Positions 9,010-15,979 of a stretch of DNA of 64,000 nucleotides are shown piece after piece. Each line of letters starts with the position of its first letter. Position 1 is the first letter of the stretch. Made by a program: the position numbers and the translations under genes. The notes beneath the pieces are model-generated. The model had not been told where the DNA came from and did not search any database. It saw only the letters and a list, made by a program, of their open reading frames with translations. Source of the stretch: Nocardioidaceae bacterium (GTDB taxonomy: Bacteria > Actinomycetota > Actinomycetes > Propionibacteriales > Nocardioidaceae); the NCBI GenBank assembly GCA_030447585.1, contig JAUJOO010000004.1, forward strand, positions 110,025-174,024, read 5' to 3'.

Positions 9010-9651
9010 CTAGGTCAAGTCGCGTTCGGACGCGGCCGAACTCATCAATGTTACCAACTGGGCGGCTGCGGCGGAAACTTCGGTGTTGACGACGGTCTCG
9101 TCGAACTCTTGTTCGGCGGCCATCTCGACGACTGCGGTCTCCAGCCGCCTGACTCTTTCCTCCTCCGTCTCGGTTCCTCGCTCGTCCAGGCGGCGGACCA
9201 GCTCTTCCCAGGAGGGCGGGGCCAAGAACACGAAGAGCGCCTCGGGCATCGACTCCTTGACCTGCCTGGCGCCTTGCAGGTCGATCTCCAGCAGCGCGGG
9301 TCGGCCTTCTCGCAGCGCCTTTTCGACCGGCTCTCTCGGTGTGCCGTACCGCGCCGAGCCGTGAACCACTGCCCACTCCAGCAGCTCGTCGGCGGCGATC
9401 AGCTGGTCGAACCGGGCGTCGTCGACGAACCGGTAGTGCACGCCGTCTGTCTCCCCCGGCCTTGGTGGTCGCGTCGTCACCGAGACAGAGATCCACACCT
9501 CGGGACAGGTGTCGCGGATGTACGCCGAGACGGTTCCCTTGCCGACCGCTGTCGGACCCGCGAGCACAGTCAACCGGCTGCGGCCTGAGGACAGGGCCTG
9601 CTCAGCGCTGTTCAAACTCACGCTCGAGCGCAGCCGCCTGGTTCGTGCCAA
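9010..9651 (-). CDS. gmk: Guanylate kinase (start uncertain; overlaps mihF end)
   Basis: [35 protein letters not shown]. Confidence 0.95.
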
Positions 9652-9919
9652 GGCCTCCCACCCGCCGAGACTCCGAGATGTGCAGCCGCTGCATCAGCGT
9701 CTTCGCCCTGACTTTGCCTACGCCTGGCATCGCCTGGAGGAGGTCAAGCACCTTCATCTTGGCAACGGCCTCGTTCGTCCGACCACTCTCGAGCACCTCG
9801 GCCAGCGAGGTCCCTGAGTGCTTCAGCCGGTTCTTCACCTCGGCACGCTCCCGGCGTACGCGGGCCGCCTTTTCCAGCGCCGCTCGGCGCTGCTCGGCGG
9901 TCAGCTCAGGCACAGCCAC
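9602..9919 (-). CDS. mihF: Integration host factor, actinobacterial type
   Basis: [28 protein letters not shown]...[32 protein letters not shown]. Confidence 0.95.
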
Positions 9920-10020
9920 AGCCCAACCTCACTTCCAGGGACAACGAGCGACCCTAGCGTCGTGGCGGTGCTCAGGGGAAGGGACTCCGGGGAGCCGCTG
10001 CCCAGTGGCGGCGAACGGTC

Positions 10021-10587
10021 TCAGAAGCCGGGGATGTCCAGGCTGAGGTCGCAGTGGTTCTGAGCGTCGTCAGCGATGACCTGAAATGCGTTCAACGCCT
10101 CGAGCCCCGCCCCGATATCCGGGATCTGCCTTGCCATGGCGGTCTCGGCGAAGTCGGAGAGCGTCTTCCAGTCGTCAGCAACCACGGTTGGTGCGATGTC
10201 CTGGATGGCCAACAGTCGGTCCAAGGTCGTCTGGTCGGCACCGGACAGTGCTGCGGACAGGTCACCGTCGTGGGTGATGTCCCTCAGCTCCGCGCAGTAC
10301 TCGGCGCGGGTGTCATCTCCTTTGTCACGGAGCAGGAAGAAGACCAGCCCGGCCACCACGATGAGCGCGAGGACAGCCGCGACACCGGCGTAGATGGGTC
10401 TCCGGTTCGTCCCGCTCTTGATCTCCTGCGGAAGCAGGTCTTGGCGCGGATAGTCGCCCGGCCCGCGGCGCGGCTCTGGTGGCGGAGCGTAGGGCCCCAG
10501 TGCCGTCGGCTCTGGTGGCCGACCGTACGACCCCTGCCAGCGCCCCGGGTCCGGTGGGGGGCCAGCTTGGCCCGGCGTGTCAGACAT
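10021..10587 (-). CDS. TM-anchored extracytoplasmic protein, island paralogue family member 1
   Basis: Pro-rich N-term, one TM (YAGVAAVLALIVVAGLVFFLL), then YC...C domain EYCAELRDI...NHCDLSLD. Confidence 0.8.
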   Translation of the reverse strand: MSDTPGQAGPPPDPGRWQGSYGRPPEPTALGPYAPPPEPRRGPGDYPRQDLLPQEIKSGTNRRPIYAGVAAVLALIVVAGLVFFLLRDKGDDTRAEYCAELRDITHDGDLSAALSGADQTTLDRLLAIQDIAPTVVADDWKTLSDFAETAMARQIPDIGAGLEALNAFQVIADDAQNHCDLSLDIPGF

Positions 10588-10621
10588 AGTCCCTCGTCCC
10601 CCGCATCCCAGTGCTTCGGCG

Positions 10622-11347
10622 TCAGTTGCCGTCGATGGTGACGTTGCAGGCCTTGACGGCGTACGACTGGATGTTCTTCAAGGCAGCGCTCGGGTCGACC
10701 GGTTCACCGTTGACGGCGTCGATGAGGACCTGATAATCGTCCCTGAGCTGGGCCGGAGCGAGCTCCCTGAAGATCTGGAGCTCAGCCTTCAGCTTGTCGA
10801 GCTCGCTCCGGTCGACGACGTCGAACTCGTTGCTCTTGGCGTTCTTGCGGAACCGCTTACAAAACGTCTCGCCCGCCGGAATGACCGGACTTGGCGGCGC
10901 CGACGTGGGGGCCGCGGATGTGGTGGTCTCGGTCGCCTCTGTGGTCTCCGTCGCCTCTGTGGTCTCCGTCGGCTCTGTGGTTTCCGTCGGCTCTGCCGAG
11001 GTGGTCTCCGGTGGCGTCGTCTCCGCCGAGGTGGTCTCGGTCGTGGTGCCCGCGCTGTCGTCGTTGTCGTCGCCGAGGAACACGAAAGCGCCCACTCCGG
11101 CCGCGCCCAACAGCAGGGCCGCCACCAAGATGCCCGCGATCAGAGCCGCGCGGTTCTTCTTGGACGGCTGCTGTCCGTAACCGCCGGGATCGCCGGGCTG
11201 GCCACCGTCGGGCGGTTGACCTCCGTACGGCGGTTGGCCACCAGCCGGTGCCTGCCCCCCGTACGGCGTAGGTCCGTAGCCGGGCTGGCCGTAGGGGGGC
11301 TGGCCGCCGTACTGAGGTGGTTCGTTCCCCTGAGGAGGCTGGGTCAT
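10622..11347 (-). CDS. TM-anchored extracytoplasmic protein, island paralogue family member 2
   Basis: MTQPPQGNEPPQYGGQPPYG... Pro/Gly/Tyr/Gln-rich tail, TM, TETTEA stalk, C-terminal domain TFCKRFRKNAKSNEFD...APAQLRDDYQVLIDA...ACNVTID. Confidence 0.85.
   Translation of the reverse strand: MTQPPQGNEPPQYGGQPPYGQPGYGPTPYGGQAPAGGQPPYGGQPPDGGQPGDPGGYGQQPSKKNRAALIAGILVAALLLGAAGVGAFVFLGDDNDDSAGTTTETTSAETTPPETTSAEPTETTEPTETTEATETTEATETTTSAAPTSAPPSPVIPAGETFCKRFRKNAKSNEFDVVDRSELDKLKAELQIFRELAPAQLRDDYQVLIDAVNGEPVDPSAALKNIQSYAVKACNVTIDGN
10919..11000 (-). repeat. 18-bp-period tandem repeat encoding TETTEA/TETTEP hexapeptides
   Basis: + strand: repeated ggtctccgtcgcctctgt units with few substitutions. 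Confidence 0.8.
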
Positions 11348-11385
11348 GTGCGTACTGTACGACGTGGGCGGCGCACAGTCGGTCG
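11347..11385 (-). promoter_or_regulatory. Candidate leaderless promoter for island paralogue 2
   Basis: CGTACAGTACGCACATG: TACAGT -10-like hexamer 6 nt before ATG; the same block precedes the 12120 gene. Confidence 0.5.
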
Positions 11386-11434
11386 CTTCCCAGGGTTGTG
11401 GCCGGGTTGACCGGCGCGTGACACCGCCACAGCG

Positions 11435-12120
11435 TCAGCCGCCCATGTCGACGCCGCAGGTCGCTTGGGCATCCAGGCCGATGGTGGTCAACGCCTGAGT
11501 GAAACGCGCCTGGTCGACATCTTGCGGCCTACCCTCCCTGACGGCCGCGAGCCCATCGGTGACGACCCGGTAGTCGTCTTGCAGGTCAGGGGGTGCAACG
11601 GCCTCGAGGCCGTCCATCACCTCAACGAGCTTCTGCTGTCCCTCTGCCGCGACTCGAAGTCACCGTGGGCGAGATCCAGCTCCTCGTCGTACTGCTTCAT
11701 CGTGTTGCAGTATTCGTCAACGACAGGCGTAGCGCTCGAGGTCGGTGGAGTGCTCGACGTGGACGGAGCCGAGGTCGTGTCCTCAGTGGCGGTGGCGCTG
11801 CTCTCGCCGCCCACAAGCGACGGCTCGGACAGCGTCAGGTCGGCGTCTTCGCGCAGGAGAAACAGGCCGCCCACCGCACCGGCGATCAGGAGCAGGACGA
11901 TCACGCCGATCGCGATGATCAAGCCGGTCTGCTTCTTCGGCGGCTGTTGGCCGTACCCGCCTGGGACGCCTTGCTGGCCACCGTAGGGCGGCTGCTGGCC
12001 GTACCCGCCGCCGTACCCGCCCGGACCACCGGGCGGCGGCTGCTGGCCGTATCCGGGCTGGCCTACGGGTTGCTGGCCGCCGTACGGAGGTGGCTCGTTG
12101 CCCTGAGGAGGTTGGGTCAT
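11435..12120 (-). CDS. TM-anchored extracytoplasmic protein, island paralogue family member 3 (frameshifted near 11645-11660)
   Basis: ORF 11617-12120 (MTQPPQGNEPPPYGGQQPV...TM...EYCNTMKQYDEELDLAHGDFES) continues in another frame as AEGQQKLVEVMDGLEAVAPPDLQDDYRVVTDGL...ATCGVDMGG down to 11435. Confidence 0.75.
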
Positions 12121-12155
12121 GTGCGTACTGTACGGCGCGAGCGGTGCACGTCGAA
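12121..12155 (-). promoter_or_regulatory. Candidate leaderless promoter for island paralogue 3
   Basis: TTCGAC-17 nt-TACAGT-ACGCAC-ATG; shares palindrome CGTACAGTACG with the 11347 gene. Confidence 0.5.
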
Positions 12156-12173
12156 GAAGACGTCACACCTCTG

Positions 12174-12740
12174 CTAGGAGCTAGTGTCCAGCGTCACGTC
12201 ACAGTTCTCCTCGGCATCCTCGCTGATGTTGGTCAATGCCTCCTGAAGCTTCGCTTGGTCCGCCGCCTCCGGTTGTTCGCCTTCGCTGAACGCTTCGAAA
12301 GCATCGATCAGCAGGGCGTAGTCTTCCTTCAGCTCGTCGGGAGCGCTCGACTCAAGCTCCTCGAAGGCTTCCAGCACCTGCTGCTGACCCTCTTCGGTGT
12401 TCTCATCGGCGTTCTCAAGGGCCTCGTCCGACTCAAACCTCTCCACTTTCAGGCAGTACAAATCGATTACCGGCTTGGCTTGTCTCGACGAGCCCCCCTG
12501 GTCCCTGCGGTCATTCGACGCGTCATCCCCGAGCACCAGCACTGTCGTGACGATGCCCACCCCAATCAGGATAACCACGACCGCTGCGGCGAGTGCCAGA
12601 ATGCGATAGCCGCCGGGAGGGCCACCCCAGCCGCCTTGGTCTGACTGGTCCGGAAACCCGGGCCCAAACCCAGGTGGACGACTCGACCCCGAAGGGGCGC
12701 CTTCGTGTGGAGGCCCACCGTGAGGACTGCTTGCTGTCAT
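12174..12740 (-). CDS. TM-anchored extracytoplasmic protein, island paralogue family member 4
   Basis: Pro/Gly-rich N-term, TM (ILALAAAVVVILIGVGIVTTVLVL), domain YCLKVERFESDEALENADENTEEGQQQVLEAFEELESSAPDELKEDYALLIDAF...ENCDVTLD. Confidence 0.85.
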   Translation of the reverse strand: MTASSPHGGPPHEGAPSGSSRPPGFGPGFPDQSDQGGWGGPPGGYRILALAAAVVVILIGVGIVTTVLVLGDDASNDRRDQGGSSRQAKPVIDLYCLKVERFESDEALENADENTEEGQQQVLEAFEELESSAPDELKEDYALLIDAFEAFSEGEQPEAADQAKLQEALTNISEDAEENCDVTLDTSS

Positions 12741-12902
12741 GTCGCGATGGTACGTCCACTAGTCCCTGGGACGCACAACTGCAAGTAGGCGGTGGCCGAC
12801 CGGTCGTTAGGAGAACAGCACGCATCCCTGTGAGTCCGGCCGGGTCAACCACCACCATGGACGTTACTGTTCCGGTACCAGCGTGCGCTATCGGGAGTAG
12901 TT

Positions 12903-14177
12903 GTGACAGAGAGCCCCAGCAGTCGGCCGTCATCCGGGGCCGATGCCCCGTCATCCCCAAGGCTTCCCCGGCCTCCGGGCGGTCCGACCTCCCCGCACAG
13001 GCATCCTCCACCCGGCGCCATACGGGGTCCGGACCAATACTGGCCAGGGTACGGCGACATGAGGTCAGCTCAGAGCGGCAACCATCCACCCCCTAGGCAA
13101 GCGCGCGTAAGCAGAATCGCAACTGACATCGTGGTCGTTATGTGGGTGCTCGCGGCGATTGGCCTCGTAATCGCTCCCTTTCGTGATCTCGCCTTCGCCC
13201 GCGTCGGTGCTGGTTCGAATTTTGTCTATCGGGAGGCAGTGGACGGCTGGGGTCGGATCACCTCCACCATGGGCGGATCATCCTTGGACTATCACGGCCC
13301 CCGATATGCCATTCCTCTTTACGGACTGGCCGCACTGCTGCTGGTGGCAGCCGTCGGGACTGCCTTCTCGAGGGTGGCACGCTGGCCTCTGATCGTCGGT
13401 CGACAGGCGACTGTGGGCACACTGGTTGTCATCGCGCTCGCGGCAGCGGATGTGGCTGCTTCACTACGAATGGCAAACTTAGTGGCTGTGGAGAACGACC
13501 TCTTTTCAAAGTATGAGGTCCGGTACGGCGGCTTCGCCCTCGTCGCCATCGCTGCGTGGCTACTTATCGCTCTGATCCCTGCCTGGCGGGTGGGACGAGG
13601 CCGCGATGCAGTAAACCGAGCATCGCTGGATTACCCTATGTCGTATGCACCGGCGGAAGCAAGGCTCGTGCTGGCTCTGCCCTGGTTTTTCGCCGGCTGC
13701 TTGGGCATCGGCGGATGTTTCCTGACCCTATGGAGGTGGTCGCAAGGCAGCAACTTCCAGGGAATCACTGGTTTGGGAACCTTCCGCACCGAAGGGCGTG
13801 GCGACGTATTGGACGGCGCCTTTGCGGTTCCTTTCATTGCGGCATATGCTCCGGCAGCACTTCTACTATTTCTGGGGGCAGGCGCGATCGTCTCCAGGTC
13901 ACGGCGATGGCGGTGGATCAGCACGGGACTCTATGGGTCCATCATGGCCAGTTCAGCTGCTATCGTCGTTCTGCTTAGCGGCCGCGCTTTCGTCTCGTTC
14001 GGGGAGTTGCCTTTCGTGGAAGCCGAGTACAGCCTTGCTTTAGGCTTCTGGTTGCTCGTGCTATCTGGCGTCTGCGCCCTGCTTGGTGCCCTTGTCGCCA
14101 TAGTTATCCCCCACGTCGAACCTGACCCGACAGCGGCTGCGTCAGTTCCAGGGGGGTGGTCACCTCCACATCCTTGA
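12903..14177 (+). CDS. Polytopic membrane protein with apparent internal duplication (2 x 4 TM) and Pro-rich N-terminus
   Basis: GTG start; about eight hydrophobic segments in two halves of similar layout; encoded opposite to flanking paralogues. Confidence 0.75.
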   Translation: MTESPSSRPSSGADAPSSPRLPRPPGGPTSPHRHPPPGAIRGPDQYWPGYGDMRSAQSGNHPPPRQARVSRIATDIVVVMWVLAAIGLVIAPFRDLAFARVGAGSNFVYREAVDGWGRITSTMGGSSLDYHGPRYAIPLYGLAALLLVAAVGTAFSRVARWPLIVGRQATVGTLVVIALAAADVAASLRMANLVAVENDLFSKYEVRYGGFALVAIAAWLLIALIPAWRVGRGRDAVNRASLDYPMSYAPAEARLVLALPWFFAGCLGIGGCFLTLWRWSQGSNFQGITGLGTFRTEGRGDVLDGAFAVPFIAAYAPAALLLFLGAGAIVSRSRRWRWISTGLYGSIMASSAAIVVLLSGRAFVSFGELPFVEAEYSLALGFWLLVLSGVCALLGALVAIVIPHVEPDPTAAASVPGGWSPPHP

Positions 14178-14302
14178 CGGTCACTATCTGACGTGAAGCA
14201 GCACGGTGTCGCGGTGCGCAGATGGTCAGATTCGCGTGACGCCGCATGCCCTATCCATAGGGGACGGTAAGCTGACCTGTCGACGGTTAGCTGATCTGGG
14301 TG

Positions 14303-14657
14303 TCAGGCGTTCATGTTCACGTCACACTTCTTCTCGGCATCCTCGGTGATGTTGGTCAATGCCTCCTGAAAGCTTCGCTTGGTCCGCCGCCTCCGGTTGT
14401 TCGCCTTCGATGAACGCTTTGAAGGCATCGATCAGCAGGGCGTAGTCATCCTTCAGCTCGTCGGGAGCGCTTGACTCCAGGTCCTCGAAGGTGTCGAGCA
14501 ACTGCTGCTGACCCTCTTCGGTGTTCTCATCGGCGTTCTCAAGGGCCTTGTCTGACTTATACTCCTTCAGCTTGTCGCAGTAGTCGTCGCCACCGCAGGC
14601 AGAAAGCGAACCGGTGGCCATGATCGCCACGGCAGCCAGAGATGCAATGCGCTTCAT
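14303..14657 (-). CDS. Lipoprotein, island paralogue family member 5 (single-base frameshift near 14370)
   Basis: Lipobox SLSAC; domain YCDKLKEYKSDKALENADENTEEGQQQLLDTFEDLESSAPDELKDDYALLIDAF; near-identical DNA to 12.2-12.45 kb; one extra base (AAGCTTTCAGG vs AAGCTTCAGG). Confidence 0.8.
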
Positions 14658-14676
14658 CGTCTTCCTCTCGAGTTGT

Positions 14677-15006
14677 TCAGGTGTTCTTGATCTCGACGTC
14701 GCAGTTCTCGACTGCGTGGTCCTGGATGTGCTTGACCGCCGCCGCAGTGAACGGGGAGGGCGGCGACCCGAGCGCCGCGATCAGCGTGTCGTAGTCGTCT
14801 TGCAGCTCCTCGGGGGCGATGTCGCGGAACTTCTCCAGCTCGGCTTTGATCTTGTCGATGTCATCTGCCCCGAGATTGTCGAACTCGTTGCTCTCGGCGT
14901 TCTCCCGGAACTTGTCGCAGTATTCGCTGCCGTCTCCGCCGCTGCAGGCGCTCAGCGTTGCCACGCTCATGACGACGACTGCTACGCACGAGGGAACTCG
15001 CTTCAT
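14677..15006 (-). CDS. Lipoprotein, island paralogue family member 6
   Basis: MKRVPSCVAVVVMSVATLSAC lipobox; EYCDKFRENAESNEFDNLGADDIDKIKAELEKFRDIAPEELQDDYDTLIAAL...ENCDVEIKNT. Confidence 0.85.
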   Translation of the reverse strand: MKRVPSCVAVVVMSVATLSACSGGDGSEYCDKFRENAESNEFDNLGADDIDKIKAELEKFRDIAPEELQDDYDTLIAALGSPPSPFTAAAVKHIQDHAVENCDVEIKNT

Positions 15007-15142
15007 GGCTTCTCCTTCAGTCAGAGGCGACACGATCGCGTCCGCTCGTCTGCGGTACGGAGCGACGACCTCGTGCACCGGAACTGAGCCACTCTTTCAC
15101 ACGGCCGTGTCAGCCGGGGAAGCACCGGGGTGAGATGGCGGG

Positions 15143-15979
15143 TCAGCCGGCTTCAAGGGCGGCCGCCAGCTCCTCGCCGACGCGTCGAGCTTTGTTCCGC
15201 AGCGCCGCGACGTCCGGCCCGGCCGTGAGCACTTCACGCGACGAGCTGGGGAGGACGCGGTCCGCCACTGCGGCGAAGATCCGGCGGATGTCGGCGGGGG
15301 TTCCTCCCTGGGCTCCGAGCCCGGGTGCCAGCAGGGGACCGCCGATGTCGAGATCCTCGTCGACCCGGGCGAGGTTGGCGGCCACGACCGCGCCTACGGA
15401 GCCCCACGGCTCAGCGGAGGTGTTCTCCCGTCGGATCGCCGCGAGAACACCACCCGCCACACTGCGGCCGTCCCGCACGGCAGCCTGCACGTCCGACGCC
15501 TCAGGGTTGGAGGTCAGCGCCAGCACGAAGACGCCGGCGCCGTGCCGCTTGGCGGTGGTGAAGGCCGGACGCATCGACTCGAACCCGAGGTAGGGGCTGA
15601 GCGTGATGGCGTCGACGGCCAGTGGTGATGTCTGGTCGAGATAGGCGTCGGCATACCCCTGCATCGTGGAGCCGATGTCGCCACGCTTCGCGTCCAGCAG
15701 CACGAGCGTGTTGCTCGTGCGCAGCGTCGCCACCAGCGACTCGAGTACGGCGATGCCACGAGAGCCGTGCCGCTCGAAGAACGCGGACTGCGGCTTCACG
15801 ACAGCCACCTGGTCCGCGAGCGCCTCGGCGCAGGTCATCGTGAACCGCTCGAGACCGGTGACGTCGTCGTCCAGCCCCCACTCGCGCAGCAGCGACACGT
15901 GCGGGTCTACACCGACGCACAACGGGCCGAGCTTGTCGACGGCGCCACGGAGCCGCAGTCCGAAGGGTGGTTGTGTCAT
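15143..15979 (-). CDS. pyrF: Orotidine 5'-phosphate decarboxylase (type 2)
   Basis: MTQPPFGLRLRGAVDKLGPLCVGVDPH, LDAKRGDIGSTMQGYADAYL. Confidence 0.95.
   Translation of the reverse strand: MTQPPFGLRLRGAVDKLGPLCVGVDPHVSLLREWGLDDDVTGLERFTMTCAEALADQVAVVKPQSAFFERHGSRGIAVLESLVATLRTSNTLVLLDAKRGDIGSTMQGYADAYLDQTSPLAVDAITLSPYLGFESMRPAFTTAKRHGAGVFVLALTSNPEASDVQAAVRDGRSVAGGVLAAIRRENTSAEPWGSVGAVVAANLARVDEDLDIGGPLLAPGLGAQGGTPADIRRIFAAVADRVLPSSSREVLTAGPDVAALRNKARRVGEELAAALEAG

Follow-up and report, generated by a model that had tools for sequence, protein, structure and literature searches.

A tandem array of small membrane-tethered proteins with a predicted four-helix domain between mihF and pyrF in a Nocardioidaceae bacterium

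The window analyzed here, a stretch of 64,000 nucleotides (nt) at positions 110,025 to 174,024 of contig JAUJOO010000004.1 (assembly GCA_030447585.1), comes from the draft genome of a Nocardioidaceae bacterium (3.1 Mb, 55 contigs). Between mihF and pyrF it carries six copies of one domain of ~85 to 100 amino acids (aa), all encoded on the minus strand and called D1 to D6 below (Table 1). A preliminary description of this DNA had proposed six paralogues at this place, and a profile built only from members in genera other than that of the window matched all six, with E values from 4e-7 to 5e-14 (5.5e-14, 9.2e-14, 1.7e-13, 4.5e-12, 1.1e-9, and 4.3e-7). The same profile found no further locus among the 825 open reading frames (ORFs) of the window and no match in shuffled ORFs, and a search of the whole genome placed the domain nowhere beyond the array. 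D1, described earlier as a diverged copy, was the most divergent of the six, yet it is a clear member by profile. The copies are not consecutive, as first thought, because a plus-strand ORF (M) separates D4 from D5. Nor is each a single product: this held for D1, D2, D4, and D6, but not for the spans 11435-12120 (D3) and 14303-14657 (D5), both of which are frameshifted.

The alignment confirmed, together with the profile, the shared module of cysteine and AP motifs that had been noticed at the outset. Common to the copies are the columns (Y/F)C, AP, D(W/Y), and C(D/N/G)(V/L), and C8, A45, P46, D52, A80, I84, A88, and C92 are invariant in all six. Across the family the signature reads (Y/F)C ... 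APxx(L/V/I)xx(D/E)(W/Y) ... C-[DG]-[VIL]. Both cysteines stand at the domain ends in every copy of the array, once the frameshifted parts are included, and in 57 of 58 full-length members. The sole exception, a member from genome G001 (L041:1-246, minus strand), lies at a contig end and has Arg in place of the first cysteine.

AlphaFold predicted an all-helical, four-helix bundle both for the D4 domain (predicted local distance difference test score [pLDDT], 88.4) and for that of the most divergent copy, D1 (pLDDT, 90.9), with one conserved cysteine on helix 1 and the other where helix 4 ends. The two models thus have the same topology rather than unrelated folds, although both used alignments of the same family and are therefore not fully independent. 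The distance from the first cysteine to the AP motif is mostly 34 to 39 residues, the few outliers being an earlier AP or SP caught by the pattern. Between AP and the second cysteine the span ranges from 37 to ~85 residues, as expected if the distal loop between helices 3 and 4 is free to vary. The original suggestion of a disulfide-closed helical bundle outside the membrane therefore stands in so far as a bundle is predicted, the cysteine pair is kept, and the membrane anchors fit; it needs amending in that the anchors differ between copies, and the disulfide is better called probable.

As in the preliminary description, no named family was recognized for the domain, and searches of Pfam, NCBIfam, PHROG, and the PDB returned no relative. 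With Pfam-A, the window proteins gave nothing over the cut-off, and the best value among 34 domain members was E 0.0012, a single-member match at chance level. No NCBIfam family exceeded its curated cut-off for the copies or members; weak matches to GltJ, FliL, and the Rv0361 C-terminal model were set aside, being limited to the Pro/Gly/Gln tail, the Thr stalk, or the transmembrane (TM) helix. None of the PHROG families matched, the PDB sequence profile search reached E 0.011 at best, to a designed protein, and a plasmid search with one family member gave no match. Literature searches found nothing on the locus or the family. We conclude that this is a real, widespread, and unnamed domain family that is functionally unsolved, and not a new kind of system. 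The word "system," used in the preliminary description, is too strong, as we saw no sign that the products act together.

The members inspected carry either a lipobox or a TM anchor. D5 and D6 have a signal peptide and an LSAC lipobox, with the first domain cysteine a few residues past the lipid-carrying one. D1 to D4 have, instead of a lipobox, a tail rich in Pro, Gly, and Gln, presumably on the cytoplasmic side, and one TM helix. D2 and D3 carry additional stalks rich in Thr, Ser, Glu, and Pro, so that stalks of differing length hold the same domain at different heights. Because anchor type switches repeatedly on the tree, with at least five changes, the lipobox is a poor defining feature of the family. 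Start signals vary as well: Shine-Dalgarno-like sequences precede D6, D5, and D1, and six bases 5' of the ATG stand TACAGT or TACACT in D2, D3, and both their orthologues in genome G003, and TACCAT in D4. The resulting TANNNT pattern upstream of 11347, 12120, and 12740 suggests that D2 to D4 have starts of the leaderless actinobacterial type.

Table 1. Coordinates of the six-copy array and its flanking genes (positions in the window)
Feature	Position	Strand	Remark
mihF (integration host factor)	9602..9919	-	Conserved flank
D1, TM-anchored "type C" member, 188 aa	10021..10587	-	YPRQDLLPQEIKSGTNRRP cytoplasmic juxtamembrane motif, one TM helix, and a short stalk bearing the four-helix domain
D2, TM-anchored member, 241 aa	10622..11347	-	Long Thr/Ser/Glu/Pro stalk; TACAGT-N6-ATG leaderless-type start (putative)
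D3, initial part, TM-anchored member	11617..12120	-	Frame broken near 11650
D3, remaining domain in different frame	11435..11659	-	Independent profile match, E 1.1e-9
D4, TM-anchored member, 188 aa	12174..12740	-	
M, orphan multi-TM protein, 424 aa	12903..14177	+	Outside domain family, within array
D5, lipoprotein member	14322..14657	-	LSAC lipobox; frameshifted by extra T near 14370
D5, domain end in different frame	14303..14431	-	
D6, lipoprotein member, 109 aa	14677..15006	-	LSAC lipobox
pyrF (orotidine 5'-phosphate decarboxylase)	15143..15974	-	Conserved flank

A tree of the domains (104 columns, with many weak forks) groups most copies by their position across the genus and not by genome. 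D1 falls with the type C rows, D2 with TM rows, D3 with a TM row of G003, and D6, for which two genomes of the genus have an orthologue, with lipoproteins from G001 and G002. D4 and D5 are sisters (support, 98/88) whose domains share 89 to 94% DNA identity on different anchors, TM and lipid, from which it follows that one of the two domains is a recent copy moved to another anchor. The start region of D3 and the 103 nt upstream of it are 86% identical to those of D2; the two proteins thus share a start region and N terminus and differ in domain type. The ratio of nonsynonymous to synonymous substitution rates (dN/dS) for intact orthologous domains within the genus was 0.19 to 0.70, mostly below 0.5, compared with 0.87 for the broken D3 and 0.61 for the D4-D5 pair. 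This pattern is consistent with purifying selection on most orthologues and one decaying copy.

Exchanges of this kind raise the possibility of a variable surface display or decoy array, whose copies would trade domains and anchors, for instance against phages or competitors. The D4-D5 pair, the repeated changes of anchor, the common N terminus of D2 and D3 on different domain types, and the very different stalk lengths all speak for it. We nevertheless consider it unlikely: copies mostly group by orthologous position across species, the dN/dS of the D4-D5 pair is not above 1, no defence family was matched with PADLOC, and no mobile genes were seen beside the array. The PADLOC matches to PD-T4-6 were discarded because they are confined to the low-complexity tail, the TM helix, and the stalk.

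D3 and D5 are both broken. In D3, the first ORF stops early, its frame being lost near 11650, and the domain continues in another frame. In D5, the extra T (CTTT in place of the CTT of D4) shifts the frame, and the ORF ends at 14322. As the flanking housekeeping genes read (metK, coaBC, rpoZ, gmk, mihF, pyrF, pyrD, and pyrK) are intact, we lean toward real decay of the two copies. Alternatively, the frameshifts may be errors of the draft assembly, which can arise where repeats are near-identical.

The family was found well beyond this genus. In the class survey, which included 25 evenly drawn Nocardioidaceae genomes, 22 carried a member, and every one of these had a member beside mihF, within ~0.5 kb in 21 genomes and at ~2 kb in G008. 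Among the named loci, collected via mihF, the pyrF-mihF interval holds a family gene in Nocardioides (Nocardioides daejeonensis and others), Marmoricola, and Aeromicrobium. In Streptosporangiales loci the family is absent, and the distance from pyrD to mihF mostly fits little more than pyrF. The same pyrF-mihF site is occupied in sister family f3 (8-Mb genomes, one to three copies) and in part of f4, and not in f2. By this distribution, the slot is old and the expansion recent. The earlier idea of a lineage-specific insertion thus gives way to that of an old, occupied slot in which the expansion to four to six copies is specific to the genus; among the genomes compared, only this one has D4 and the orphan gene inserted in the array.

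Elsewhere in Actinomycetota, including several families outside the class, lipoproteins of the family occur at other loci. Outside the window genus, a site mostly holds one to three lipoproteins, compared with four to six copies on mixed TM and lipid anchors within it. At 20 of the loci elsewhere, the neighbors were named by eye from their sequences (N termini): in family f23 the members, often tandem, are flanked by clpC and a HAD phosphatase gene, and in genus g19 by secDF on one side and apt-relA on the other. Two to three lipoproteins beside clpC and the HAD phosphatase gene at three f23 loci (L218, L219, and L224) make up a second expansion. No toxin, protease, or transport gene accompanies the family at every site examined.

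Divergent small, tethered paralogues in tandem resemble immunity arrays in style, and the copies could on that ground be immunity or exclusion lipoproteins that neutralize an incoming toxin or block entry and are retained as an array. Small size and the lipid or TM tether fit such a role, but we regard it as very unlikely: no toxin gene was recognized adjoining the copies examined, inheritance is vertical and syntenic, and the immunity families Imm5 and CdiI_2 appeared only at E >0.01 and for single members.

Equally improbable, in our estimation, is a role as carriers of a small molecule or metal, like the secreted haem-binding proteins of mycobacteria. A small, helical, two-cysteine extracytoplasmic fold is, by analogy, alike in style, and many members are very acidic. 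However, the domain has few or no His and Met residues, net charge runs from +8 to -34 among members without being conserved, and no fold in the PDB matched. Simple ion binding, considered for the very acidic members, was set aside on account of this unconserved charge.

D1-type proteins have a further conserved element. Just inside the TM helix, those of ten genomes, that of the window included (10390-10470, minus strand), carry the motif YPQQxLLPQE(I/V)xxGxNRxP. Among nine D1-type proteins, pairwise identity was 61% in the motif, compared with 41% in the ectodomain and 42% in the TM helix, which points to a specific cytoplasmic partner or processing step in the D1 subfamily only. A search with the juxtamembrane motif in other proteins gave strong matches only to D1 orthologues; the two best non-orthologous matches, when read, aligned over generic TM regions and were dismissed. 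With this motif, D1-type proteins are the likeliest members to act through a specific partner. It is conceivable, though decidedly unlikely, that the array serves for modular display and sensing, with one disulfide-stapled bundle presented at several heights on lipid or TM anchors that are swapped by recombination, and with D1 signaling inward via YPQQxLLPQE to a cytoplasmic partner. If so, the family would be a kind of actinobacterial envelope sensor that has not been described before.

Taken together, the locus is where an old, vertically inherited family of small membrane-tethered proteins of actinobacteria has expanded at the level of the genus. Our preferred reading, held tentatively and with less than even confidence, is that these are tethered envelope adaptors or receptors. 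Each product would present one extracytoplasmic four-helix bundle, with a probable disulfide linking helices 1 and 4 near the membrane. Given an up-down-up-down order, YC, the AP turn with D(W/Y), and C-D-V would all lie at a conserved membrane-proximal pole, and the distal loops would vary in length and sequence. The stapled bundle may hold these loops at a set height above the membrane, where they would bind another envelope component, and D1, the TM member beside mihF, may relay this contact through its conserved motif to a partner in the cytoplasm. Homology, anchor motifs, predicted fold, synteny, and purifying selection on most orthologues are shown, and the anatomy of the domain is well supported; we infer its function, along with the disulfide, the orientation of the bundle, the binding role, and the cytoplasmic partner. 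Homology of the six copies, their common predicted topology, the kept cysteine pair, the variation in loop length, the dN/dS values, the anchors, the D1 motif, and adjacency to mihF all argue for the adaptor or receptor role.

Several points weigh against it. The placement of the conserved pole is a deduction from the order of the helices, and the analysis turned up no partner, ligand, or phenotype for the family. Unconserved charge speaks against a simple role in ion binding. In this assembly two of the six copies are broken, so that either the full set is dispensable or the assembly is in error, and 3 of the 25 Nocardioidaceae genomes had no family match. Neighbors vary by clade (pyrF-mihF, clpC/HAD phosphatase in f23, and secDF-apt-relA in g19), and gene context therefore indicates no common pathway.

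Some of these points count for a more passive role as structural or filler lipoproteins, in which a stable bundle without a specific partner was duplicated by unequal crossing over beside housekeeping operons. Such a role, doubtful in our view but possible, is favored by the inconsistent gene context, the fast sequence change, the variable charge, the two frameshifted copies, and the three genomes lacking a match. It sits poorly with the dN/dS values of most orthologues, which are well below 1, with adjacency to mihF kept across three families, and with the conserved cytoplasmic motif of type C.

Two other features of the window may be mentioned. The orphan M has a G+C content of ~0.60 to 0.64, compared with ~0.68 around it; it had no homologue in 58 related genomes and no family in the Pfam, NCBIfam, and PHROG searches. 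A flavin mononucleotide (FMN) riboswitch lies at 183-314 on the minus strand (score, 95.9).

The finding does not settle any long-standing question. Now that the family has a profile, a fold prediction, and a conserved genomic address (pyrF-X-mihF), it can be named and tested in Nocardioides or Aeromicrobium that grow in culture, and its tandem members are shown to switch anchor while retaining the domain.

Among known proteins, four-helix bundles of the PDB, whether designed or natural (e.g., 3u3b and 7t03), share the generic topology, with a template-modelling score (TM-score) of up to 0.59; the Foldseek matches to the PDB were generic helical bundles and nonsignificant, at E 3.7 and 2.8 at best for the two models. 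The DUF732 and haemophore-like secreted proteins of mycobacteria are likewise small, helical, and extracytoplasmic with two conserved cysteines; such proteins were absent from the 25 listed of the 26 Pfam families that the 34 members hit at E 0.1. In Mycobacterium tuberculosis, the slot beside Rv1388 is presumably occupied by PE15/PPE20 (Rv1386/Rv1387), an adjacency we take from the locus numbers, with Rv1385 as what we assume to be pyrF. PE15 and PPE20 presumably belong to a protein family different from that of the window copies; they are not lipoproteins, and PE/PPE models matched none of the six. Rv1388 is the mIHF of M. tuberculosis (PMC3724605), and PE15/PPE20 have been reported to carry calcium across its outer membrane (PMC9731449). 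The likeness lies in envelope proteins occupying the mihF slot, and it is parallel, not homologous.

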